Source of the DNA: Hymenobacter perfusus | GTDB taxonomy: Bacteria > Bacteroidota > Bacteroidia > Cytophagales > Hymenobacteraceae | Direction: 5' to 3' | NCBI RefSeq assembly: GCF_003944765.1 | Contig: NZ_RWIU01000002.1 | Span: 62,001 to 126,000 of the forward strand | DNA: 64,000 nucleotides | Part shown: piece by piece, positions 2,942 to 13,925 of the stretch | How positions within the stretch are numbered: the first letter of the stretch is position 1 | Layout of the letters: each line of letters begins with the position of its first letter | Made by a program: the position numbers and the translations under genes | Notes under the pieces: generated by a model | Databases searched by the model: none | Told to the model about the DNA's origin: nothing | The model's input: the letters and a program-made list of their open reading frames with translations, nothing else

Positions 2942-4933
2942 TTGGCCAGACCAGTAATTTCTTCTCTGCTACCTGTGCTCAGCCGCCTGGCGGTGCTGCT
3001 GCTGCTGTTGCTGCCCCGGCTGGCTTCCGCTCAGGCACCCGGGCCGCGCTGGCATTCGGCCCTCGACAGCCTACAGGCCCTGGAGCGGCTGCCCCAGTCC
3101 GACAGCAGCCGGGTGCAGCTGCTGTGCCGCATCAGCGACCAGCTGTGGGCTTCCGATACGGAGGCCGCCGCCGCGTACTCGCGGCGGGCGCTGGCGCTGG
3201 CCCGGCGCACTCATAATCGGGCGGGCGAAGGGGCCGCGCTCAACCGTTTAGGCGCAGCGTTGCGGGAAAGTAATTTGGCCCGAGCACTGGAGCTGTTTCA
3301 GGAGTCGTGGCGGCTGGGCCGGGAACTGCGCGATACCACGCTGCAAGCCCAGAACCTGCGCAGCATCGGCATTATCTACGTGTATTTGCGCGACCGGCAG
3401 CTGGGGCTGTCATATTACTTTGAGGGCCTGCGGCTGGATAGCCTGCTGGGCGATGAGCGCCGGATTGCCGTGGACCTGAGCAATATCGGGCTGGCCTATG
3501 ATCTGTACGACGAGCTGGACTCGGCCGCCTATTACCAGCAGCGGGCCTACCAGCTGGCCCAGCGGCTGCACGCTTCCACCAACTACATCCTGTACGGGCT
3601 GGGCAACGTGGCCCGCAAGCAGGGCCGTTTCGCGGAGGCCCGGGACTACTACCGCCGCAGCGTGGCCGAGTCGAAGCGGCGGCGGCACCTGCGCAGCCTC
3701 AACTTCTCCTACCTCGGGCTGGCCGCCCTCTACCAGCAGCAACACCAGCCCGATTCCAGCATTCACTACGCCCGGCTCGGGGCCCAGGCGGCCCGGCAGA
3801 ACGGGTTTCTGCGCGGGGTGCTCAATGCCAGCGTGCTGCTGACGCAGGATTTCGCCCAGCGCGGCCAGCTGGACAGCGCCTTCCGGTACCAGAAGCTGCT
3901 GGTGACCATGAAGGACACGTTGTTCGGGCAGGAGAAGGTGATGCGTCTGCAGAACGTGGACTACCTGGAGCGGCAGCGCGCCCAGGAAGCCGTGGCCGCC
4001 CAGCAGGCCATCCACAACCGCTACCAGACCTACGGCCTGCTGGCGGGCCTGGCAGTGCTGGGGCTGCTGCTGGCTCTGCGGCTGCGTCACGGCCGGCGGA
4101 TGCAGCGTACCAACGCCGCCTTGCAGGCCTCCCTAGCCGACCTCAAACAGGCCCAGCTGATGCTGGTGCAGCGCGAGAAAATGGCCTTCCTGGGCGAAAT
4201 GACGGCCGGCGTGGCCCACGAGCTGCAAAACCCGCTCAGCTTCGTGAAGCGGTTTGCCGAAGTCAGCACGGAGCTGGTGGACGAAATCAACGGGGCCCAG
4301 CAACTGGCCCGCGACGGCAACCTGGAGCGCGACATCCTCGATGGGCTCAAGCAGAACCTGCTCAACATCAGTCAGCACGGGCAGCGGGCCACGGCCATCA
4401 TTAAGGGCATGCTGGAACACGCCCGCACCGGCCAGGCCCCGCGTGCCCTAACCGACCTCAACGAGCTGGCCCGGGAGCAGCTGGAACTGGCCTACGCGGG
4501 CATGCAGCAGCAGTTTCCGGGCTTCGCGGCCGAGGTGCGAACGGAGCTGGAACCCGCCCTGCCCGCCGTGTCGGTGGTAGCGCAGGACCTGGGCCGGGTG
4601 CTGCTCAACCTCTGCACCAACGCCTTATACGCCGTGCGCCAGCGCCAGCAGCGCGCCGAAGTGGGCTATAAGCCCACCGTAACCATCGGCAGCCACCGCC
4701 TGCCCGACGGCCGCCTGCGCCTGTGGGTGCGCGACAATGGCCCCGGCATTGCGTCCGAGGTATTGCCCCGCATCTTCGAGCCGTTTTTCACTACCAAGCC
4801 CGTGGGCGAGGGCACCGGCCTCGGCCTGTCGCTCAGCCACGATATTGTGGTGAACGGCCACGGCGGCCGGCTGGAGGTCACGTCGCAGCCCGGCGAAGGC
4901 ACCGAGTTCCGGCTGACGCTGCCGGCCAGCTGA
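2942..4933 (+). CDS. TPR-containing sensor histidine kinase
   Basis: A membrane-anchored two-component sensor. There is no ATG near the 5' end: TTG 2942 and GTG 2975 both give a signal peptide (LSRLAVLLLLLLPRLASAQ), and TTG 2942 is taken here. About 330 residues of tetratricopeptide-like helices form the periplasmic part. One membrane span (YGLLAGLAVLGLLLALRLR) and a short coiled coil follow. The kinase core has H-box GVAHELQNPLSF (His near 426), N-box NLCTNALYAV, G1 DNGPGI, F-box FEPFFTTK and G2 GTGLGLSLS. No response regulator is adjacent, so it is an orphan kinase whose partner is unknown. The start is uncertain, the family call is firm. Confidence 0.9.
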   Translation: MARPVISSLLPVLSRLAVLLLLLLPRLASAQAPGPRWHSALDSLQALERLPQSDSSRVQLLCRISDQLWASDTEAAAAYSRRALALARRTHNRAGEGAALNRLGAALRESNLARALELFQESWRLGRELRDTTLQAQNLRSIGIIYVYLRDRQLGLSYYFEGLRLDSLLGDERRIAVDLSNIGLAYDLYDELDSAAYYQQRAYQLAQRLHASTNYILYGLGNVARKQGRFAEARDYYRRSVAESKRRRHLRSLNFSYLGLAALYQQQHQPDSSIHYARLGAQAARQNGFLRGVLNASVLLTQDFAQRGQLDSAFRYQKLLVTMKDTLFGQEKVMRLQNVDYLERQRAQEAVAAQQAIHNRYQTYGLLAGLAVLGLLLALRLRHGRRMQRTNAALQASLADLKQAQLMLVQREKMAFLGEMTAGVAHELQNPLSFVKRFAEVSTELVDEINGAQQLARDGNLERDILDGLKQNLLNISQHGQRATAIIKGMLEHARTGQAPRALTDLNELAREQLELAYAGMQQQFPGFAAEVRTELEPALPAVSVVAQDLGRVLLNLCTNALYAVRQRQQRAEVGYKPTVTIGSHRLPDGRLRLWVRDNGPGIASEVLPRIFEPFFTTKPVGEGTGLGLSLSHDIVVNGHGGRLEVTSQPGEGTEFRLTLPAS

Positions 4934-5029
4934 TGATGCGTCTATGTAGCGAGAGTTGATATTGCGCAGCAGTCTGATACAGAATCGACAAGCAAGCAGA
5001 CTGAAAAAGACACCCAACAAACGTATACT

Positions 5030-5362
5030 ATGCAGGCAAAAAAGCTTCCGAAGGACTTTGCGTATCTGACAGATATGTATGAGGATGATTACTTTCCTGC
5101 GTTTCTGGTCGATAAGATTAAAGCCGCAATTGAAGATGTAGTCGGCTTCCTGGAACAGGGAAATTCATCCAACGCGGAAATTCAGGCTGCACTCGACAAA
5201 ATGACCTTGAAGATTAATCATCTCCAGGAGGAATTTGAAGAAAATGACAGCGAATTAGAAACGGAGGCTAGGGAATCTATTGGAGCAACGATAGACGAGA
5301 TTCTACGCTTTTTCGATGTTGATATCGATGGCGAAGAAGCGCTGAGAGAACGGGAATGGTAA
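5030..5362 (+). CDS. DUF5713-like small acidic protein
   Basis: 110 residues, strongly acidic and helical. The motif LTDMYEDDYFPAFLVDKIK near residues 12-30 resembles DUF5713 proteins, which have no known function. Base composition is visibly lower in G+C than the flanking genes, with AT-rich codons such as GAT, GAA and TTT, so recent acquisition is possible. ATG 5030 is preceded by an A-rich stretch typical of Bacteroidota leaders. No partner gene is apparent: the kinase upstream ends 96 bases earlier, and the operator block of the TonB receptor follows. Confidence 0.75.
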   Translation: MQAKKLPKDFAYLTDMYEDDYFPAFLVDKIKAAIEDVVGFLEQGNSSNAEIQAALDKMTLKINHLQEEFEENDSELETEARESIGATIDEILRFFDVDIDGEEALREREW

Positions 5363-5402
5363 AGCTGCTGACGGGATGGTATCCGTTTCTGGCAGCTTGA
5401 AG

Positions 5403-5473
5403 ACGCTTCATCCACCGAATCCGACGCTTCGGTAACGGCGAGTTTCAGCGGCGGCAGTAAGAGCCCACTTTCG
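5403..5473 (+). promoter_or_regulatory. Putative LytTR-type operator and promoter of TonB receptor gene
   Basis: ACGCTTC occurs at 5403-5409 and again at 5424-5430, exactly 21 bases apart. TTTC at 5443-5446 is followed after 19 bases by CACTTTCG at 5466-5473, a degenerate match to TTTG-N19-TAnnTTTG. The same arrangement with identical spacings occurs at 8045-8115. LytTR regulators are known to bind paired direct repeats about two helical turns apart just upstream of weak promoters. The link to the LytTR genes at 10147 and 11568 is inference. Confidence 0.5.
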
Positions 5474-5496
5474 GGCATCACTTCGCTGCTGCTGCT

Positions 5497-7698
5497 ATGA
5501 AACGCCTCCTCTACCTGTTCCTTTTCCTGCTGGCTGGCCTCCCCGCGCAGGCCCAGACCACCACTGTCACCACCCTCAGCGGCACCGTGCGCGACGCGGC
5601 GGGCCAGCCGCTGCCGGGCGTGAACGTGTTCCTCAAAACCACCTTCGACGGGGCCAGTACTGACTCGGTAGGCCGGTTCCGGTTCGCTACGGAAGCAGTG
5701 GGGCACTATACGTTGCAGGCCAGTCTGCTGGGCTTTGTTACCACGGAGCGGGCCGTGGAGCTGACCGGGCAGCCGCTGCCGCTCACGCTCGTGCTCAAGA
5801 GTGAGCCCCACGCGCTGGGCTCGGTGGTGATTACGGCCGGGGCCTTCGAGGCCAGCGACGAGCACCGCAGCGCCGCCCTTAACACCCGCGACGTGCAAAC
5901 CACCGCCGGCGCACTGGCCGATGTGGCGGCGGCCTTCAACACCCTGCCCGGCACCACCCGGGTGGGCGAGGACGGCATGCTGTTCGTGCGGGGTGGGGCG
6001 GCTTCGGAAACCAAAACTTACCTCGACGGGCTGCCCGTGCAGAACCCGTATAACGCCACCGTGGCGGCCGTGCCGGCCCGGGGCCGGTTTGCGCCCACCC
6101 TGTTCAAAGGTACCGTGTTCAGTACCGGCGGCTACTCGGCGCTGTACGGGCAGGCGCTGTCGGGCGTACTGTTGCTGAACTCCACCGATCTGGCCCCCGA
6201 AACCCAGACCGGCCTCTCGGCTACCTCGGTGTTCCTGGGAGCCTCGCGCACCAAGCGGTGGGAGCGGACCTCGTTGGCCGTCACGGCCGATTATACCAAC
6301 CTGACGCCCTACACCGGCCTGCTGCCCCAGAACGTGCGCTGGGACCAGGCCCCGCGCGGGTTGGCTACCTCCGTGGCCCTGCACCACCGCACCGGCCAGG
6401 CCGGCATGCTGAAAGTGTACGGCACCTGGACCAGCCAGCAGTTCCGGATCGGGCAGCCCAGCCCCGAGCCGGTCGGTACCCAGACGGTGGGCCTGCGCAA
6501 CGCCAACGGCTACCTCAACACCACTTTGCGCAGCCCATTGCGCCGGGGCTGGAGTCTGCAGACCGGCTTGGCCCTGAGCCGCGACAACCAGCAGCTGCGG
6601 CCCGATTCGGTGCGGCTGCGTACGCTGGAGCAGGCGGTGGTGGGCCGGGTGGTGCTCATCAACGACTCGGCGGCCACCCGCTGGAACGTGAAGGTGGGGG
6701 CCGAGGTGCTGGCCCAGCAGGTACGGCAGCAGGTGCAGCCCAACGTGGTCGAGGCCACTGTGTACCGCCCCGGTTTCAGCGAAAAGCGGGCGGCGGCCTT
6801 CGTGGAATCCGACTTTCAACTGACGGACCGGCTGGCGGGGCGGGTGGGCGCGCGCACCGAGTACTCGGCGGTGCTGCGCCGCTGGAACGCCGCGCCCCGG
6901 GTGGCCCTGGCGTATCAGACGTTCGAAAATAGCTCGGTTTCGGGGGCGTACGGGCGGTTTTACCAGACCCCCGACAATGCGCTGCTACTGGTGCAGCCCC
7001 GGCTGCGCTTCGAGCAGGCTACCCACGCGGTGCTCACCTACCAGTACACCCACGACCGGCAACTGTTGCAGGTAGAAGCCTACCACAAAACCTACCGCCA
7101 CCTCACCCGCTTCGAGGGCTCGGCCCCGCGCAACCCGCTGGGCTACGACAACGGCGGCAGTGGCTACGCCCGGGGCCTGGACGTGCTGTGGCGCGACCGG
7201 AAAACGGTGAAAAACCTGGAGTACTATATCAGCTACGGCTTCCTGGATACCCGCCGCCAGTACCGCCAGGATCCGGTCGCGGCCGTGCCCACCTTCGCGG
7301 CCCGGCACAATGTGTCGGTGGTTGGGAAATACTGGGTGGGCGGGCTGCACACGCTGCTGGGAGCCACGGCCAGCTACGGCAGCCCCCGCCGCTACCACGA
7401 CCTGAACCAGCCCGAGGCCGGCTATAACCAGGGCCGCCTGCCCAGCTACCAGGAGCTGAGCCTGAACGCCAGCTACATCACCCGCCTGTTCGGCCAGTAC
7501 ACAGTAGTACACGCGGCCGTGAACAACGTGCTGGGCCGCCCGAACGTGTTCGGCTACCGCTACGCCAGCCAGCCCGCCGCCGACGGCCAGTTCAACCGCG
7601 TGGCCATCGGCCCCACCGCGCCGCGCATGGTGTTTCTGGGCGTGTTCATCTCCATCAATAAGAAGTCGCCGGGGGATGTGAACGAGCGGCCGGAGTAG
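5497..7698 (+). CDS. TonB-dependent outer-membrane receptor
   Basis: 733 residues. An N-terminal signal peptide (MKRLLYLFLFLLAGLPAQAQ) is followed by a carboxypeptidase-regulatory-like beta-sandwich (LSGTVRDAAGQPLPGVNVF, about 28-110). Then comes a plug domain (GTTRVGEDGMLFVRGG, SALYGQALSGVLLL, about 125-240) and a long beta-barrel. It should import a substrate across the outer membrane using TonB energy. The substrate is unknown and no SusD partner is next to it. The C-terminus lacks the usual terminal aromatic residue and ends in a polar tail (SPGDVNERPE), a mild oddity. It is the first gene after the paired-repeat operator at 5403. Confidence 0.93.
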   Translation: MKRLLYLFLFLLAGLPAQAQTTTVTTLSGTVRDAAGQPLPGVNVFLKTTFDGASTDSVGRFRFATEAVGHYTLQASLLGFVTTERAVELTGQPLPLTLVLKSEPHALGSVVITAGAFEASDEHRSAALNTRDVQTTAGALADVAAAFNTLPGTTRVGEDGMLFVRGGAASETKTYLDGLPVQNPYNATVAAVPARGRFAPTLFKGTVFSTGGYSALYGQALSGVLLLNSTDLAPETQTGLSATSVFLGASRTKRWERTSLAVTADYTNLTPYTGLLPQNVRWDQAPRGLATSVALHHRTGQAGMLKVYGTWTSQQFRIGQPSPEPVGTQTVGLRNANGYLNTTLRSPLRRGWSLQTGLALSRDNQQLRPDSVRLRTLEQAVVGRVVLINDSAATRWNVKVGAEVLAQQVRQQVQPNVVEATVYRPGFSEKRAAAFVESDFQLTDRLAGRVGARTEYSAVLRRWNAAPRVALAYQTFENSSVSGAYGRFYQTPDNALLLVQPRLRFEQATHAVLTYQYTHDRQLLQVEAYHKTYRHLTRFEGSAPRNPLGYDNGGSGYARGLDVLWRDRKTVKNLEYYISYGFLDTRRQYRQDPVAAVPTFAARHNVSVVGKYWVGGLHTLLGATASYGSPRRYHDLNQPEAGYNQGRLPSYQELSLNASYITRLFGQYTVVHAAVNNVLGRPNVFGYRYASQPAADGQFNRVAIGPTAPRMVFLGVFISINKKSPGDVNERPE

Positions 7699-7868
7699 CG
7701 TTTTTGGTTTTTGGGTGTTGGTTTTTGGTTGGGAGGTCCCGGTCCGGCAGCTGTAAGCTGTCGGGCCGGTTGTCGTATGGTTCATCCGCCCGCCGCCGCA
7801 ACATCAGCAACTGGCAACCGGCCCGACGGCTTGCCGCCGCCGGACCAGTAGTTCCGCCTTCTCATTCA

Positions 7869-7994
7869 TGTGACAACCTATGTCATCCGTGCAGCAGTCG
7901 TTGCCGCCCGCGCAATGCTCTTTGCCACCTGTGTAGCATCCGTTGTCACCCGAACAGTGACCGTTGTCACCCGCGCAATGCCCGTTGTCACCTG
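7869..7994 (+). repeat. 21-bp tandem repeat, six units
   Basis: Six consecutive 21-base units start at 7869, 7890, 7911, 7932, 7953 and 7974. Most share the core CCGTTGTCACCCG, with the first units more diverged. They fill much of the 447-base gap between the TonB receptor and the next gene and stop about 50 bases before its operator block. Read on the minus strand they encode heptapeptides of the type GDNGHCx, but I see no convincing gene there. The rest of 7699-7868 holds nothing recognisable. Confidence 0.8.
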
Positions 7995-8044
7995 TGCGAC
8001 AGGTCACCAAAAACGAAAAGCAAGCAACGGAAAAACAAAATCCA

Positions 8045-8115
8045 ACGCTTCATCCGGGTAATCCGACGCTTCGGTAACGGCGAATTTCGGGGGTGGCGGG
8101 CGGGATGCACCTTTG
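8045..8115 (+). promoter_or_regulatory. Second copy of the putative LytTR operator and promoter
   Basis: ACGCTTC at 8045-8051 and 8066-8072 (period 21), TTTC at 8085-8088 and CACCTTTG at 8108-8115 (spacer 19). About 40 of 45 bases match the block at 5403-5447, and the distance from second repeat to -7 element is 42 bases in both. The duplicated block stands in front of two unrelated genes, which argues for a shared regulatory role rather than gene duplication. Confidence 0.5.
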
Positions 8116-8145
8116 AAGCATCAATCACCACAAACCCCCTTCGCT

Positions 8146-8862
8146 ATGAAGACTGCCTTGCTGACCCTCGCCTGCGTAACCGCCTCCCTCGCCGCTTTGG
8201 CCCAGAACGCCGCCCCGGCTGCTGCCTCTGCCGCTCCGGCCACCACTACCGCAGCTGCTCCGGCTGGCTCCTACGCCGCCCTGCTGGGAACCACTGTGCA
8301 GGAGCTGATGAGCACCGGCGAGCCGACCGTGCTCAAGCAGCTGGATGCCCGCCTGGAGCGCGCCGCCACCGTGGCCCCCCAGGACTGGCTGCCCCGCTAC
8401 TACCAGGCCTACGCCCGCGTGATTACCTGCTTCCAGAGCAAGGAAGACGGCGACGTGAAGGACCAGTACCTCGACCGCGCCGAGGCCGCCCTCACCCAGG
8501 CCCGCAAGCTGGGCGGCGACGAAGCCGAGCTGCTAGTGCTGCAGAGCTACATTTACCAGGCCCGCCTTGGCGTGTCGCCCATGCTGCGCTCCATGAAGTA
8601 TTCGGGGATGGTGAAGGAGGCGCTGGCTCAGGCCAAAAAGCTGAATCCCGCCAACCCGCGCATCTACCTGGTGGAAGCCAACAACGTGTACTACACGCCC
8701 GCCATGTTCGGGGGCGGGGCCGAGGTGGCCAAACCCGTGTACGAGGAAGCCAAGGCCCGTTTTGCTGCCTTCCGGCCCGCCTCGGCCCTGGCCCCAAACT
8801 GGGGCGAGCGGCAGGTGTTGGGCCGCCTGAAAGCCTACCAAACCGCCACCGCCGCTAAATAG
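8146..8862 (+). CDS. Secreted TPR-like protein
   Basis: 238 residues from ATG 8146. This start was chosen because it opens directly into a signal peptide (MKTALLTLACVTASLAALAQ); an earlier in-frame ATG at 8113 would overlap the -7 element. An Ala/Pro/Thr-rich linker (22-50) is followed by helical pairs resembling tetratricopeptide repeats, for example YLDRAEAALTQARKLG and EALAQAKKLNPANPRIYLV. It is probably periplasmic or surface-attached. It shares its upstream regulatory block with the TonB receptor and is followed by a strong hairpin, so it is likely monocistronic. Function unknown. Confidence 0.85.
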   Translation: MKTALLTLACVTASLAALAQNAAPAAASAAPATTTAAAPAGSYAALLGTTVQELMSTGEPTVLKQLDARLERAATVAPQDWLPRYYQAYARVITCFQSKEDGDVKDQYLDRAEAALTQARKLGGDEAELLVLQSYIYQARLGVSPMLRSMKYSGMVKEALAQAKKLNPANPRIYLVEANNVYYTPAMFGGGAEVAKPVYEEAKARFAAFRPASALAPNWGERQVLGRLKAYQTATAAK

Positions 8863-8872
8863 CTGATTGCAA

Positions 8873-8928
8873 CGGCCGGTAGCGCAGTAGCGCGAACTAC
8901 CAAGTTCACGCTGCTGCGCTACCGGCCG
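8873..8928 (+). terminator. Intrinsic-terminator-like hairpin
   Basis: The arms 8873-8892 and 8909-8928 pair over 20 positions with one G-T wobble, around a 16-base loop. A T-rich stretch (TATCTTTTC) follows about 8 bases later. It lies 10 bases after the secreted protein gene and separates it from the LytS-type kinase gene. Confidence 0.65.
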
Positions 8929-8967
8929 CTGCGTATCTTTTCGCTTCGTTTGTCATGCTGCTTGCTC

Positions 8968-10023
8968 ATGGAACAATCCGCCGTACTGGGGAAACACTAC
9001 CCGAAATACACCTGGCTGAAAACACTGGGGTTGATGCTGGTGCTGTCGGTTGTACTGAGCTTTGCCTTTTGCCCGGGCTGTGCGGTCTGGAGCGAGGATT
9101 TTCTTGTCTCCTTCGGCTACAACTTCTGCTACACCACCGGCCTGTGGTTGGCCAACGGCGTGCCCTCCGAGCTGCTGAACCGCTACGTGGACTGGACGGA
9201 GAATCCGCTGCGGCGGTTTCTGACCACGGTGGCCGTGTCGTTGCTGGCCTCGCTGCTGGTTATTCTGGTGGTGACGACGGCGTTCCGGGTGGGCTACTTT
9301 CACAAGTCGTTCTGGAGCATCAGCTGGAAGGCGTTTGTGATACCGCTGGGCATTACGCTGGTGGTGTCGTTGTTCATGCACAGCCGCTCGTTTCTGCTGA
9401 GCTGGCGCGAAGTATCGGTGCGGGCGCAGCGGCTGGAAAAGGAAAATGCCCAGGCCCAGGCCGACAGTCTGCGCCGCCAGCTCGACCCGCATTTCCTGTT
9501 CAACTCCCTGAACGCCCTGACCTCGCTGGTGGAGGAAAACGACCCCGCGCGGGCCTCCCGCTTTATCCGTCAGCTCAGCCAGGTGTACCGCTACGTGCTC
9601 GATAGTCAGGATCAGGAAGTGGTACTGCTGGCCGAGGAAATGAAGTTTGGCGAGGCCTACCTGTTTCTGCAGCGCACCCGCCTGGGCGAAGGGTTGCAGG
9701 TGCAGCTGCCCCCGCTTACTGCTGCTACCGGGGCGCTGCTGGTGCCGCCGCTGGCGTTGCAGCTGCTGCTGGAAAACGCCCTCAAGCACAACGCCACCTC
9801 CCAGCGCGACCCGCTGCGCATCTGCATCGAGCTGGACGAGGCGGCCCGCACGCTCACCGTGCGCAACTCCCGGCAAACCCGCCGTTTGGCCGAGGGCGAA
9901 TCGATGGGCGTGGGCCTGAAAAACCTGCAAGCCCGCTACGCCTTCCTCACGCCCCGCCCCGTGCTGGTAGAAGCCTCCGAAACCGAGTTTGCCGTAACGC
10001 TGCCGCTGCTGGAACTGCAGTAG
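8968..10023 (+). CDS. LytS/YehU-type sensor histidine kinase
   Basis: 351 residues from ATG 8968 (MEQSAVLGKHYPK). Four hydrophobic segments form the membrane domain (about 15-140). A coiled coil with QRLEKENAQAQADSLRRQ precedes the His_kinase signature LDPHFLFNSLNALTSL (phospho-His near 176). The ATPase has LLLENALKHN and GVGLKNLQARY. This is the LytS class, which partners with LytTR response regulators. The LytTR gene at 10147 follows on the same strand after a 123-base gap and is the obvious partner. The stimulus is unknown. No periplasmic sensory domain is visible, so sensing probably occurs in or at the membrane. Confidence 0.92.
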   Translation: MEQSAVLGKHYPKYTWLKTLGLMLVLSVVLSFAFCPGCAVWSEDFLVSFGYNFCYTTGLWLANGVPSELLNRYVDWTENPLRRFLTTVAVSLLASLLVILVVTTAFRVGYFHKSFWSISWKAFVIPLGITLVVSLFMHSRSFLLSWREVSVRAQRLEKENAQAQADSLRRQLDPHFLFNSLNALTSLVEENDPARASRFIRQLSQVYRYVLDSQDQEVVLLAEEMKFGEAYLFLQRTRLGEGLQVQLPPLTAATGALLVPPLALQLLLENALKHNATSQRDPLRICIELDEAARTLTVRNSRQTRRLAEGESMGVGLKNLQARYAFLTPRPVLVEASETEFAVTLPLLELQ

Positions 10024-10146: not shown

Positions 10147-10944
10147 ATGACCCCGACCACTACCCCGTTGCGCGCTTTAATTGTGGAAGATGAGCCGCTG
10201 GCCGCCTCCCGGCTGGCCGGTTTGTTGAAAAAATACCCGCAGCCGGTGGTCGTGGTGGGCACGGCCGAATCGGTGGCGGAGGCCGTGGCGCTGCTGCAAA
10301 GCCTGCAGGCCGCCCCGCCCGACGTGCTGTTTCTGGATATCCATCTGGCCGACGGGCTGAGCTTCGAGCTGTTCGAGCGGCTGGAAATCCGCACGCCCGT
10401 CATCTTCACCACCGCCTACGACAAGTATGCCCTGCGCGCCTTCAAGGTGAACAGCGTGGACTACCTGCTCAAGCCCATCGACCCGGAGGAGCTGACGGCG
10501 GCCCTGGATAAGCTGCACCGCCAGCAGCAGCAGGCCGCGCCCCAGTTCGATGCGGCTTTGCTCACGCGCATGCTGCAGCAGGCCCAGCCCGCGCGGGAGT
10601 ACAAAACGCGCTTCGTGGTGCGGGTGGGCGAGCACCTGAAGGCCATTCCGGTGGAGCAGATTGCCTACTTCGCCAGCCTGGAGAAAGTGACGCTGCTGCA
10701 CACCCGCGAAGGTCGCCGCTTCGTGGTGGACTACACGCTGGAGCAGCTGGAAGGTCTGCTCGATCCGCTGGAGTTTTTCCGCCTCAACCGCGCCTACCTA
10801 GCCCACGCCGAGGCCATCCACGACATCATCCACTACACTAACTCCCGCCTGCAAACCATCCTCAAGCCCGCCGCCCCCGACAACGACACCGTGCTGGTCA
10901 GCCGCGAAAAGGTCAACGCCTTCAAGGCCTGGCTGGATCGGTAA
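10147..10944 (+). CDS. LytTR-family response regulator
   Basis: 265 residues. The receiver domain (about 5-125) shows the acidic pair VEDEP, phospho-acceptor Asp in VLFLDIHLADG, and conserved ITTAYDKYA-like and LLKPID segments. The C-terminal DNA-binding LytTR domain (about 155-262) contains RVGEHLKAIPVEQIAYF and FFRLNRAYLAHAEAI. It is expected to be phosphorylated by the LytS-type kinase encoded upstream and to bind paired direct repeats. The blocks at 5403 and 8045 are candidate targets by inference. It is followed after 4 bases by a membrane protein gene, so the two are probably cotranscribed. Confidence 0.93.
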   Translation: MTPTTTPLRALIVEDEPLAASRLAGLLKKYPQPVVVVGTAESVAEAVALLQSLQAAPPDVLFLDIHLADGLSFELFERLEIRTPVIFTTAYDKYALRAFKVNSVDYLLKPIDPEELTAALDKLHRQQQQAAPQFDAALLTRMLQQAQPAREYKTRFVVRVGEHLKAIPVEQIAYFASLEKVTLLHTREGRRFVVDYTLEQLEGLLDPLEFFRLNRAYLAHAEAIHDIIHYTNSRLQTILKPAAPDNDTVLVSREKVNAFKAWLDR

Positions 10945-11567: not shown

Positions 11568-12347
11568 TCACCCTTCCAGCCAGTTCTTCACGGCCCCGGC
11601 TTTTTCCCGGCTCACCAGTACTTCCTCGCTGGGGGCGGGGTGCAAATCCACCAGCAGCTTGCCGTTGAAGTGCGGGTGCAGGCGCTGCACGGCGGGTAGC
11701 TGGGCCAGCAACTGGCGGTTGAGGCGGAAGAACTGGGCGGGGTCGAGGAGGGTTTCGAGCTGTTCCAGGGTGTACTCCACCACGAAGCGGCGGCCGTCGA
11801 GGGTGCAGAGGGTGGTGGTTTCGTGGCGGCTCTGGAACCAGGCGGCCTGGGTGGCGGCCACCGGCAGCAGCTGCTCGCCGCTGCGCACCAGAAAACGGGT
11901 TTTAAACTGCCGCTCCGGTCGGGGCAGGGCATCGAGCAGGCGCTCCAGGCGCTGGGCCGTATCATCGGCGGGGCGGGAGGGGGCGGCCGGGGTGCGCCAT
12001 TCGTGGAGCTTCGTAAGGGCGGTGGTCAGCTCGGCCAGCTTCACGGGTTTGAGCAGGTAGTCCACGCTGTTGGCCCGGAAGGCCCGGATGGCGTAGGCGT
12101 CGTAGGCCGTGGTGAAGATAACCGGACTGCGCACCACTGTTTGCTCAAATACTTCCAGGCTCAGCCCATCGGCCAGCTGAATATCACTCAGAATCAGGTC
12201 GGGGGCCGGGTTCGTATCCAGCCAGTGCAGAGCTCCGGCCACGCTATCCAGTACGGCCAGTACCTGAGCTTCGGGAGAGGCTTGGCGCAGCAGGCGTTGC
12301 AGCCGCTCGGCGGCCGGGTATTCGTCTTCGAGCAGCAGAACGGTCAT
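11568..12347 (-). CDS. LytTR-family response regulator (second pair)
   Basis: 259 residues with the same architecture as the regulator at 10147: acidic pair LEDEYP, phospho-acceptor in LILSDIQLADG, ITTAYDAYAIRAF, LLKPVK. A C-terminal LytTR domain follows from about residue 150 (FLVRSGEQLLPVAATQAAWF, FFRLNRQLLAQLPAV). It is downstream of a LytS-type kinase on the minus strand and converges on the first pair. Extended similarity in both partners suggests the two systems arose by duplication. Target sites are unknown. The C-terminal recognition part differs enough for distinct targets. Confidence 0.92.
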   Translation of the reverse strand: MTVLLLEDEYPAAERLQRLLRQASPEAQVLAVLDSVAGALHWLDTNPAPDLILSDIQLADGLSLEVFEQTVVRSPVIFTTAYDAYAIRAFRANSVDYLLKPVKLAELTTALTKLHEWRTPAAPSRPADDTAQRLERLLDALPRPERQFKTRFLVRSGEQLLPVAATQAAWFQSRHETTTLCTLDGRRFVVEYTLEQLETLLDPAQFFRLNRQLLAQLPAVQRLHPHFNGKLLVDLHPAPSEEVLVSREKAGAVKNWLEG

Positions 12348-12406
12348 GCAGAGGTAGGAGTGAGAAGTTAGTGGGGAGGCAGAATGACGTTCTTTTTTCT
12401 AACTCC

Positions 12407-13429
12407 TCAAAGTAACGGCAGCCGCACCTGAAACCAGCCGTTTTCAGTGCTGACGGCTACCGGGTGGGTGGCTTGCAGCAGCTCGTAGCGGTGGCGCACA
12501 TTGCGCAGGCCGGTGCCGGTGCCGGGCGCGAGGCCGGCGGTGCGGGGGCGCAGGGTGTTGCGCACCGTGAAGGAGCCAGTGGCCGGGTCGGCGGTGAGTT
12601 CCAGTCGCAGCGGGTGTTCCCGGGAGGCCACGTTGTGCTTGAGGGCGTTTTCCACCAGCAGCTGCACGCTGAGCGGAGCCACCCGGGCCGCGTGGGCGGC
12701 GGGCGGCACCTGCCACTGCACCCGCAGATTGTCGCGGAAGCGGGCTCTGTGCAGGGCCAAGTAGGTTTCCACGAAGGCCATCTCCTCGCTCAGCGGCACG
12801 GTGGTTTGGTCGCGGGCCAGCAGCACGTAGCGGTACACATCGGAAAGCTGCTCCACGAAATCCTGGGCCGCCGCGTTGTCGGGTTCAATAAGGGCCGAGA
12901 GGGTGTTGAGGGAGTTGAACAGAAAATGCGGGTCGAGCTGACTTTGCAACGCTTCCAGCTGACTGCGGGTGCTGGCACTCTGCAGCTGCTCGGTGCGGCG
13001 CACATTCTCGGCCCACTGCCGGAAATAATTCCAGCTTTCGTAGATGAGCTGCACAATGATGGTGGGTACCATGTTCAGACCGAACTCGGTAAACCATACC
13101 GAAACTGGCAGCTGAATGCCGTGCAGTTTCGCTGAAATAGACAGCAGCATCACTGTAACCACGGCCGTAGTAGTGGTATTGATGCTGGCCAGCAGCCACA
13201 GTCGCTGCCGCGTTTGGTGCATGCCCGGAAACCGTCGGAACAAGAGAGCCCACAGGGCACGGCCCGATAACCAGAATACCGTAGTAAAGCTCAAGGAAAC
13301 TGCCCAGGCCACCAGAAACTCAGGTATTGACCGCACCTGCAGCAGCCCCCGGGGCAGCAGCACTAGCAAGGAGCCAATGGGAATGCCCCAGAGCAGCAGC
13401 AGACGGTCACGAAACGGCATGAGAGGCAT
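12407..13429 (-). CDS. LytS-type sensor histidine kinase (second pair)
   Basis: 340 residues from ATG 13429 (MPLMPFRDR); ATG 13420 is an alternative, and a longer frame to 13522 has no better start. Four membrane segments in the first 140 residues lead to QSQLDPHFLFNSLNTLSAL, the His_kinase signature, and an ATPase with LLVENALKHN and GTGLRNVRHRY. The start overlaps the 3' end of the DUF2867 gene by about 20 bases, so translation is probably coupled. The LytTR gene follows 59 bases downstream. It is probably the partner of that regulator. Confidence 0.9.
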   Translation of the reverse strand: MPLMPFRDRLLLLWGIPIGSLLVLLPRGLLQVRSIPEFLVAWAVSLSFTTVFWLSGRALWALLFRRFPGMHQTRQRLWLLASINTTTTAVVTVMLLSISAKLHGIQLPVSVWFTEFGLNMVPTIIVQLIYESWNYFRQWAENVRRTEQLQSASTRSQLEALQSQLDPHFLFNSLNTLSALIEPDNAAAQDFVEQLSDVYRYVLLARDQTTVPLSEEMAFVETYLALHRARFRDNLRVQWQVPPAAHAARVAPLSVQLLVENALKHNVASREHPLRLELTADPATGSFTVRNTLRPRTAGLAPGTGTGLRNVRHRYELLQATHPVAVSTENGWFQVRLPLL

Positions 13430-13925
13430 AAGGGGCCATGAAGCGGGGCTCGGCCCGGCGCAACAGGGCCCGCACCACGGCCCGGTGAAACGGGGTAATA
13501 CCGGCGAAATATACGCGCCCAACCCAGTTGTGAAAATGCACGGCGGTGGTTAGGTCCACCGTGTGGGGCTCGGCCGTCAGCACGGCTACCCGGAAGTTGA
13601 GGTGCCGGTCATCAAGGCCCAGCAGAACCTCCGTGGGCTGTACGGCGAATATCCGAAAAGGCCCCAACTGCCCGCCGGCTTCCAGCTGATCGGGCATGGG
13701 CCCCGGCCGGAGGGTGGACTTCAAGCCTACCCAGGACGCCAGGGTGTTGCGCAGGGCTAGCAGGCAGCGCACCCAACATGGGGCCGAATCAGGCCCAAAC
13801 AGCAGGCGGGCCGCCTCTGAAGCCGGCAGAGCAGTTGCTACCGGCAGGCGGTACGTATCGTGGTAGTGCGGTGCGGGCAGAGCCGCGGCCAACAGGCGAG
13901 CGGAGGCAGGATACGACATTGGCAT
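13407..13925 (-). CDS. DUF2867 domain-containing protein
   Basis: 172 residues from ATG 13925 (MPMSYPASARLL); ATG 13919 is equally possible. Typical DUF2867 features are HYHDTYRLPV near 22, WVRCLLALRNTLASWVGL near 50-68, LLGLDDRHLNFRVAVL near 103-118 and GRVYFAGITPFHRAVVRALL near 138-157. The family is widespread and uncharacterised. Its 3' end overlaps the second LytS-type kinase gene, suggesting cotranscription. This is a recurrent clue that the pair might respond to something linked to this protein, but that is only context. Confidence 0.85.
   Translation of the reverse strand: MPMSYPASARLLAAALPAPHYHDTYRLPVATALPASEAARLLFGPDSAPCWVRCLLALRNTLASWVGLKSTLRPGPMPDQLEAGGQLGPFRIFAVQPTEVLLGLDDRHLNFRVAVLTAEPHTVDLTTAVHFHNWVGRVYFAGITPFHRAVVRALLRRAEPRFMAPYASHAVS

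Follow-up and report, generated by a model that had tools for sequence, protein, structure and literature searches.

Why does the same operator-promoter block stand in front of two envelope genes of one bacterium, and which regulator would act on it? The question is raised by a stretch of 64,000 nucleotides from Hymenobacter perfusus (NCBI RefSeq assembly GCF_003944765.1, contig NZ_RWIU01000002.1, positions 62,001 to 126,000 of the forward strand). We call the whole of this analysed stretch the window and number positions from its first letter. One block precedes the gene of a TonB-dependent receptor, the other that of a secreted protein, and a LytS-type kinase and a LytTR regulator are encoded behind them. 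We consider it likely that the blocks define a closed, probably self-activating LytS/LytTR regulon of a HusA/HusB-like uptake pair. Papers are cited by PMC number. The features concerned are the following.

5403..5432, plus strand: operator 1, two direct repeats, ACGCTTCAT at 5403 and ACGCTTCGG at 5424, upstream of the TonB-dependent receptor gene
5443..5473, plus strand: promoter 1, -33-like TTTC (5443-5446), N19, -7-like CACTTTCG (5466-5473)
5497..7698, plus strand: TonB-dependent receptor (CarbopepD_reg_2 and Plug, from Pfam; HusB-like by gene context)
8045..8074, plus strand: operator 2, two direct repeats, ACGCTTCAT at 8045 and ACGCTTCGG at 8066, upstream of the HusA-like gene
8085..8115, plus strand: promoter 2, -33-like TTTC (8085-8088), N19, -7-like CACCTTTG (8108-8115)
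8146..8862, plus strand: secreted HusA-like haemophore homologue of 238 aa with a nine-helix TPR-like fold
8950..10023, plus strand: HK1, LytS-type sensor histidine kinase (PF06580, from Pfam), an open reading frame (ORF) starting at TTG with its first in-frame ATG at 8968
10147..10944, plus strand: RR1, LytTR response regulator (Response_reg and LytTR, from Pfam), conserved beside the operator and predicted to bind both operators

The two blocks share one geometry. ACGCTTC starts at 5403 and 5424 in block 1 and at 8045 and 8066 in block 2, 21 bp apart both times, and the -7-like boxes (CACTTTCG at 5466, CACCTTTG at 8108) lie 42 bp past repeat 2 and follow TTTC after N19 in both. Counted from the start of repeat 1, the repeats are 9 nt long (columns 0-8 and 21-29), leave a 12-nt gap and end 10 bp ahead of the -33 element. 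The repeats, TTTC, the -7 box and all the spacings reported in a preliminary description of this DNA, made from the sequence alone, are exact in both blocks. From repeat 1 through TTTC the blocks agree at 39 of 44 positions, and in the -7 box at 6 of 8; elsewhere the figures are 8/19 in the spacer, 8/44 upstream and 5/24 downstream. Likeness that is restricted to the functional parts, between unrelated flanks and across an unrelated spacer, points to selected sites and not to a recently copied segment. The next best match in the window to either 44-mer has 26 identities. A loose pattern with three mismatches allowed was found 13 times in the window, 11 of them at two or three mismatches, where dinucleotide shuffles predict 5.9.

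The blocks are also unique in the genome. A relaxed pattern has two sites at zero mismatches in the 5.1 Mb, both in the window, and none at one mismatch; at two mismatches there are 21 sites, against 20 for a reversed-pattern control allowing up to two. A genome search for ACGCTTC-N14-ACGCTTC, the repeat part of the pattern proposed earlier, gives three matches and none for the control, the third match lying inside a tandem-like stretch of contig C10. Scored with a position matrix, the two window sites reach 54.7 bits each, being themselves among the 101 training instances, compared with a best score of 4.2 among 1,814,683 reverse-strand positions of the loci described below.

The operators are of a known type. 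Published LytTR sites have repeats of 9-11 nt and spacers of 11-13 nt (PMC4847170), and the window repeats, at 9 nt with a 12-nt gap, fall within that definition. Across prokaryotes LytTR repeats typically stand 10 bp before the -35 element, and self-activating LytTR operons favour a 12-bp gap within the repeat pair and 10 bp from there to the -35 (PMC6193735); the window operators, with their 12-bp gap and 10 bp before -33, have the layout commonest in such operons. The -33 (TTTC) and -7 (CAnnTTTG) elements are imperfect against the Bacteroidota promoter consensus TTTG/TAnnTTTG (PMC7366714), as expected of an activator-dependent promoter. The weak promoter posited in the preliminary description is borne out by these off-consensus elements, behind an operator placed for activation. 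The classical LytTR 9-mer is [TA][AC][CA]GTTN[AG][TG]. Repeat 2 fits it in all 13 sites collected from other genera and repeat 1 in 5 of the 13; by reading, window repeat 1 (ACGCTTCAT) departs from it at two positions.

The genes behind the two promoters had been taken for unrelated. This view does not hold: the TPR-like gene is a HusA homologue and the receptor gene is its conserved neighbour, which makes the two products partners. Pfam and NCBIfam have no family for the 238-aa secreted protein, and some of its relatives give weak matches to TPR models. With phmmer it matches HusA of Porphyromonas gingivalis (PG_2227, 6bqs) at E 2.1e-32, and a family profile does so at E 1.1e-42. Its AlphaFold model (mean predicted local distance difference test score, pLDDT, 85.7; residues 1-38 poorly predicted) has nine helices, as HusA does, and the top Foldseek match is HusA 6bqs (38% identity, E 6.6e-11, TM-score 0.81 when normalised by HusA). 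HusA itself is TPR-like and binds porphyrins, and a transfer of these to the TonB receptor HusB has been proposed; its homologues are limited to Bacteroidetes, free-living species included (PMC6173696), so the spread of the family is not itself new. We found a HusA-family match in 123 of 395 phylum genomes at E 0.001, some of them weak. The receptor gene adjoins a HusA homologue in many loci and gene order is conserved, while a comparison of the receptor with solved structures gave no match at E 0.001. The assignment of a HusA-like function is thus well supported, and a reading of the sequence on its own could not have reached it. From this homology the ligand is probably a porphyrin or haem. 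A SusC/SusD pair was considered and rejected: the receptor reaches only 43.4 bits (residues 26-117) against the NCBIfam TIGR04056 cut-off of 368.25, and PDB searches with the secreted half rank HusA first.

The blocks are conserved in Hymenobacter and in a sister genus (Solirubrum). A scan of 120 genus genomes with the core pattern (25 fixed letters, up to three mismatches) found the site in 88, with exactly two sites in 60, one in 27 and three in 1; 32 genomes had none, and the reversed-pattern control had 0 in the same 120. Paired sites of one genome lie about 2.3-15.6 kb apart on the same strand, except in one genome where they fall on two contigs. Among the loci of the two genera, 69 of 76 have a site ahead of the HusA-like gene and 52 of 66 assessable ones have it ahead of the receptor gene; the -7 box sits precisely at +63, counted from repeat 1, in 62 of those 69 and in 36 of those 52. 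These counts omit L162, L166 and L170 (same genomes as L075, L136 and L137) and L157-L160; the receptor count sets aside 10 loci without a receptor or its upstream DNA, and scores L126 as a miss though the DNA upstream of its receptor is cut off. As the loci are related, they do not count as independent events. The ungapped matrix was built from 101 instances chosen on operator columns (0-10 and 16-33), so that operator conservation in it is partly by choice; the -33 and -7 columns were not chosen. Among the columns not selected on, a -33 block ArTTTC (38-43) and CACCTTTG (63-70) emerge, and the spacers are weakly conserved. Between the paired copies of a genome, agreement averages 88% over the operator columns and 45% over those of the spacer, in 52 pairs picked by operator score. 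One genome (G031; locus L160, minus strand, around 7600) has a third operator-like site at three mismatches, with a -7-like box, about 400 bases upstream of an ORF that by reading resembles a sugar dehydrogenase.

The same order of receptor, HusA-like gene, kinase and regulator recurs in other genera. We scored 16 loci from genera other than Hymenobacter and its sister leave-one-out against 200 shuffles. Upstream of the receptor gene the operator beat every one of the shuffles at all 12 assessable loci, a Rufibacter and a Flavobacteriales metagenome-assembled genome among them. Upstream of the HusA-like gene it was present at two of the 16 (L137, L138), the sole two with HK1 and RR1 and no nearby receptor; L141 is truncated upstream of its receptor, and in L145 (Myxococcota) there is no receptor and no site. 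All 11 sites found before other-genus receptors by a rule that ignores the -7 box have that box at +63; the 13 other-genus training sites were picked with it in register. Within the family a single operator, ahead of the first gene, is usual, and a pair of them is the mark of Hymenobacter and its sister genus. One Pontibacter (L137/L170) also has a pair, its second site lying ahead of a 227-aa membrane-protein-like ORF (L170, 11034-11806) and not of a receptor.

Further afield we took 20 distant phylum loci, that is, 20 of the 123 matching genomes. Ahead of whichever gene of the pair comes first, the operator outscored the shuffles at all 7 loci with RR1 (at least 38% identity) versus 2 of 13 without, L236 (regulator match 35%) being counted among the latter; at the 7 it lies at the receptor in five and at the HusA-like gene in two, where no receptor is in reach. 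Three of the 20 (L235, L237, L241) have an additional site before a HusA-like gene behind the receptor. Sites before the HusA-like gene are thus not confined to Hymenobacter and its sister genus, and operator doubling is not unique to Hymenobacter. We hold it to be rather probable that the circuit is an old one in Bacteroidota: a LytS/LytTR pair dedicated to HusA/HusB-type uptake, its layout kept from a Flavobacteriales genome to Hymenobacter, with the operator doubled in the Hymenobacter lineage and a few distant relatives to drive receptor and haemophore separately. At L239 and L142 a DUF2141 gene joins the cluster, and L239 also has three 2TM-domain ORFs and a 2TM domain on the kinase within it.

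Which regulator would read these sites? HK1, a PF06580 kinase, adjoins a regulator with receiver and LytTR domains, which is the definition of a LytS/LytTR two-component system. A second such pair, RR2/HK2, lies at 11568-13522 on the minus strand, pointing toward RR1. We predict, from conservation and domain sequence, that RR1 is the conserved partner and likely binder of both operators and that RR2 is unlikely to be. The preliminary description had proposed footprinting the regulator at 10147, a likely binder given its conservation beside the operator, and, as a control, the one at 11568, an improbable binder. RR1 is favoured because it co-occurs with the operator across genera, because the RR2 LytTR domain is without the NSR motif of the RR1 domain, and because operator quality follows variants of RR1: with EKTT-variant RR1 the operator before the HusA-like gene is weak in 10 of 10 loci, versus 1 of 64 others, although the EKTT loci may be one clade and so possibly one event. 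These ten (L092, L103, L106, L108, L112, L119, L123, L127, L130, L140) have weak or degenerate operators, and in several of them the receptor promoters have a different sequence in common (near TTTTGCTG..CTTTTARTTGAA), which may be an operator that has been re-tuned.

That another LytTR regulator, notably RR2, binds the sites, or that several paralogues share them, we regard as unlikely. RR1 and RR2 are present together in 61 of 75 Hymenobacter and sister-genus loci, the genome holds 19 RR1-like matches, and some operators or operator-like sites are found away from a close RR1 (G006, G071, G072, L230, L237), all of which would suit such an arrangement; yet RR2 was not found in L068, L096 and L111, which have strong operators and 10 kb of downstream sequence, nor in the fetched other-genus stretches, of limited length, that carry operator and RR1. 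L235, a distant locus with operator and RR1, does have, upstream, another kinase-regulator pair of roughly 30% identity. Nor do we expect RR1 to repress these promoters instead of activating them. CoxC, a LytTR protein, represses from repeats that overlap the -35 box (PMC11347149), but the window repeats end 10 bp before the -33 element with no overlap, and the departures from consensus at -33 and -7 are as expected where an activator is needed. The notion that the blocks are a duplicated or dispersed repeat of no regulatory role has next to no probability left. A dispersed palindromic repeat does occupy the stretch between the receptor and HusA-like genes, but it is a different sequence (7732-7855), whereas the blocks have only two genome copies at zero or one mismatch, unrelated flanks and spacers, and a layout kept across genera; the genome count and that layout already refute a dispersed repeat. 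The nature of the ligand leaves more room: that the cargo of the pair is neither haem nor porphyrin, the HusA fold and sequence family having been reused, is a serious if somewhat doubtful possibility. The family is frequent in Bacteroidota, including free-living species (PMC6173696), and the position of Y164, Tyr or Phe in the aligned Hymenobacter sequences, is Asn, His or Gly in some others. By eye in the phmmer alignment, however, the window protein retains the HusA groove positions F80, L122, V124, P126 and Y164.

Several observations weigh against a haem-dedicated regulon run by RR1. In the same alignment W130 is replaced by Ser and L123 by Gly, and M116 also differs; W130 contributes to haem binding in HusA, as do L123, V124 and Y164 (PMC6173696), and with Ser in place of W130 the ligand may differ from that of HusA. 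One P. gingivalis study found hus expression to be independent of iron or haem (PMC10913741). The spacing is not fully rigid, as the -7 box is shifted by +1 base in 2 HusA-like-gene sites and 12 receptor sites (the 12 include three extra loci without a HusA-like gene), and in a few sites the box is not recognised. Ten Hymenobacter loci with RR1 have weak or degenerate operators; seven further, non-EKTT loci have a poor receptor operator or none, L126 with its truncated upstream DNA among them; and at L132 the operator before the HusA-like gene is weak although RR1 is not the EKTT variant. G006, G071 and G072 have an operator and a receptor-like gene and no HusA-like gene, and are without a close RR1 (best 44%, 41% and 42% identity). 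L098 has both operators and HK1 and no RR1 within 10 kb, and L230 (weak, 13.6 bits) and L237 have an operator-like site with no RR1 nearby. Such exception loci may be relics, relocated genes or sites under the control of other regulators.

We therefore favour a closed regulon under RR1. Each block would be the site of a LytTR-family activator fused to a weak Bacteroidota promoter (-33/-7). HK1, answering a signal, would phosphorylate RR1, and phosphorylated RR1 would bind the paired 9-bp repeats just ahead of -33 and recruit RNA polymerase. It would so turn on the receptor gene at one promoter and, at the other, the HusA-like gene and probably also the HK1 and RR1 genes behind it; if the HusA-like gene, HK1 and RR1 are co-transcribed, RR1 would raise its own supply. 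The outcome would be a self-reinforcing circuit in which the receptor of the outer membrane and the secreted protein that goes with it are made together, haem or a porphyrin being the most likely cargo. Of the small LytS/LytTR regulon with an uptake or surface function that had been suggested from the first reading, the regulon and the uptake function gain support from the two sites, the HusA homology and the conserved pair.

The DNA between the receptor and HusA-like genes has features of its own. The palindrome at 7732-7855 has 41-nt arms and is part of a dispersed element resembling repetitive extragenic palindromic (REP) sequences, with 83 match places in the genome (one copy may match on both strands). 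A degenerate 21-nt tandem array (7869-7994, units near CCGTTGTCACCCG) lies directly upstream of operator 2. Rfam gave nothing above gathering score on 4900-8900, and two sub-threshold hits on the palindrome (7741-7846). A structured leader RNA was ruled out, the repeats being upstream of the predicted promoter and no Rfam family exceeding its gathering score.

For a Bacteroidota LytTR regulator there is thereby a site that can be tested, along with a target function and a predicted regulon of two promoters. Our findings also place the HusA family in environmental bacteria and suggest how such systems may be switched on. In the open-licence literature we found no paper on LytTR in Hymenobacter and nothing pairing '2TM domain-containing' with LytTR; among the matches listed, none links a HusA haemophore with LytTR and none describes an operator for a Bacteroidota LytTR regulator. 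LytTR and kinase mutations have been reported in Flavobacterium johnsoniae. Operators, two-component systems and haemophores of these types are each known already, HusA included; the open-licence matches listed do not include their combination.

Known systems share parts of this arrangement. P. gingivalis HaeSR exerts two-component control over haem uptake genes in Bacteroidota, but its targets are hmuY, ihtA, ragA and others, and LytTR and husA are absent from the main text (PMC3764172). The Streptococcus mutans HdrRM and BrsRM systems are operons that activate themselves and whose LytTR repeats mostly have a 12-bp gap (PMC6193735); there the regulator is paired with a membrane protein (HdrM, BrsM) and not with a histidine kinase. 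Escherichia coli YpdA/YpdB, acting on yhjX, is a LytS/LytTR pair with direct repeats 21 bp apart (GGCATTTCAT twice, from an oligonucleotide; PMC4847170). It differs in repeat sequence, signal and target, whereas in the window both sites lie in the regulator's own neighbourhood. The P. gingivalis Hus system, with its haemophore HusA (PG_2227) and TonB receptor HusB, has in common with the window a HusA homologue beside a TonB-dependent receptor gene. Its operon comprises HusA-D, of which HusC and HusD are described as having no known function (PMC10100897, PMC12106395). The window receptor is likened to HusB by gene context, and to the Hus arrangement the window adds a LytS/LytTR pair and two LytTR-type operators.

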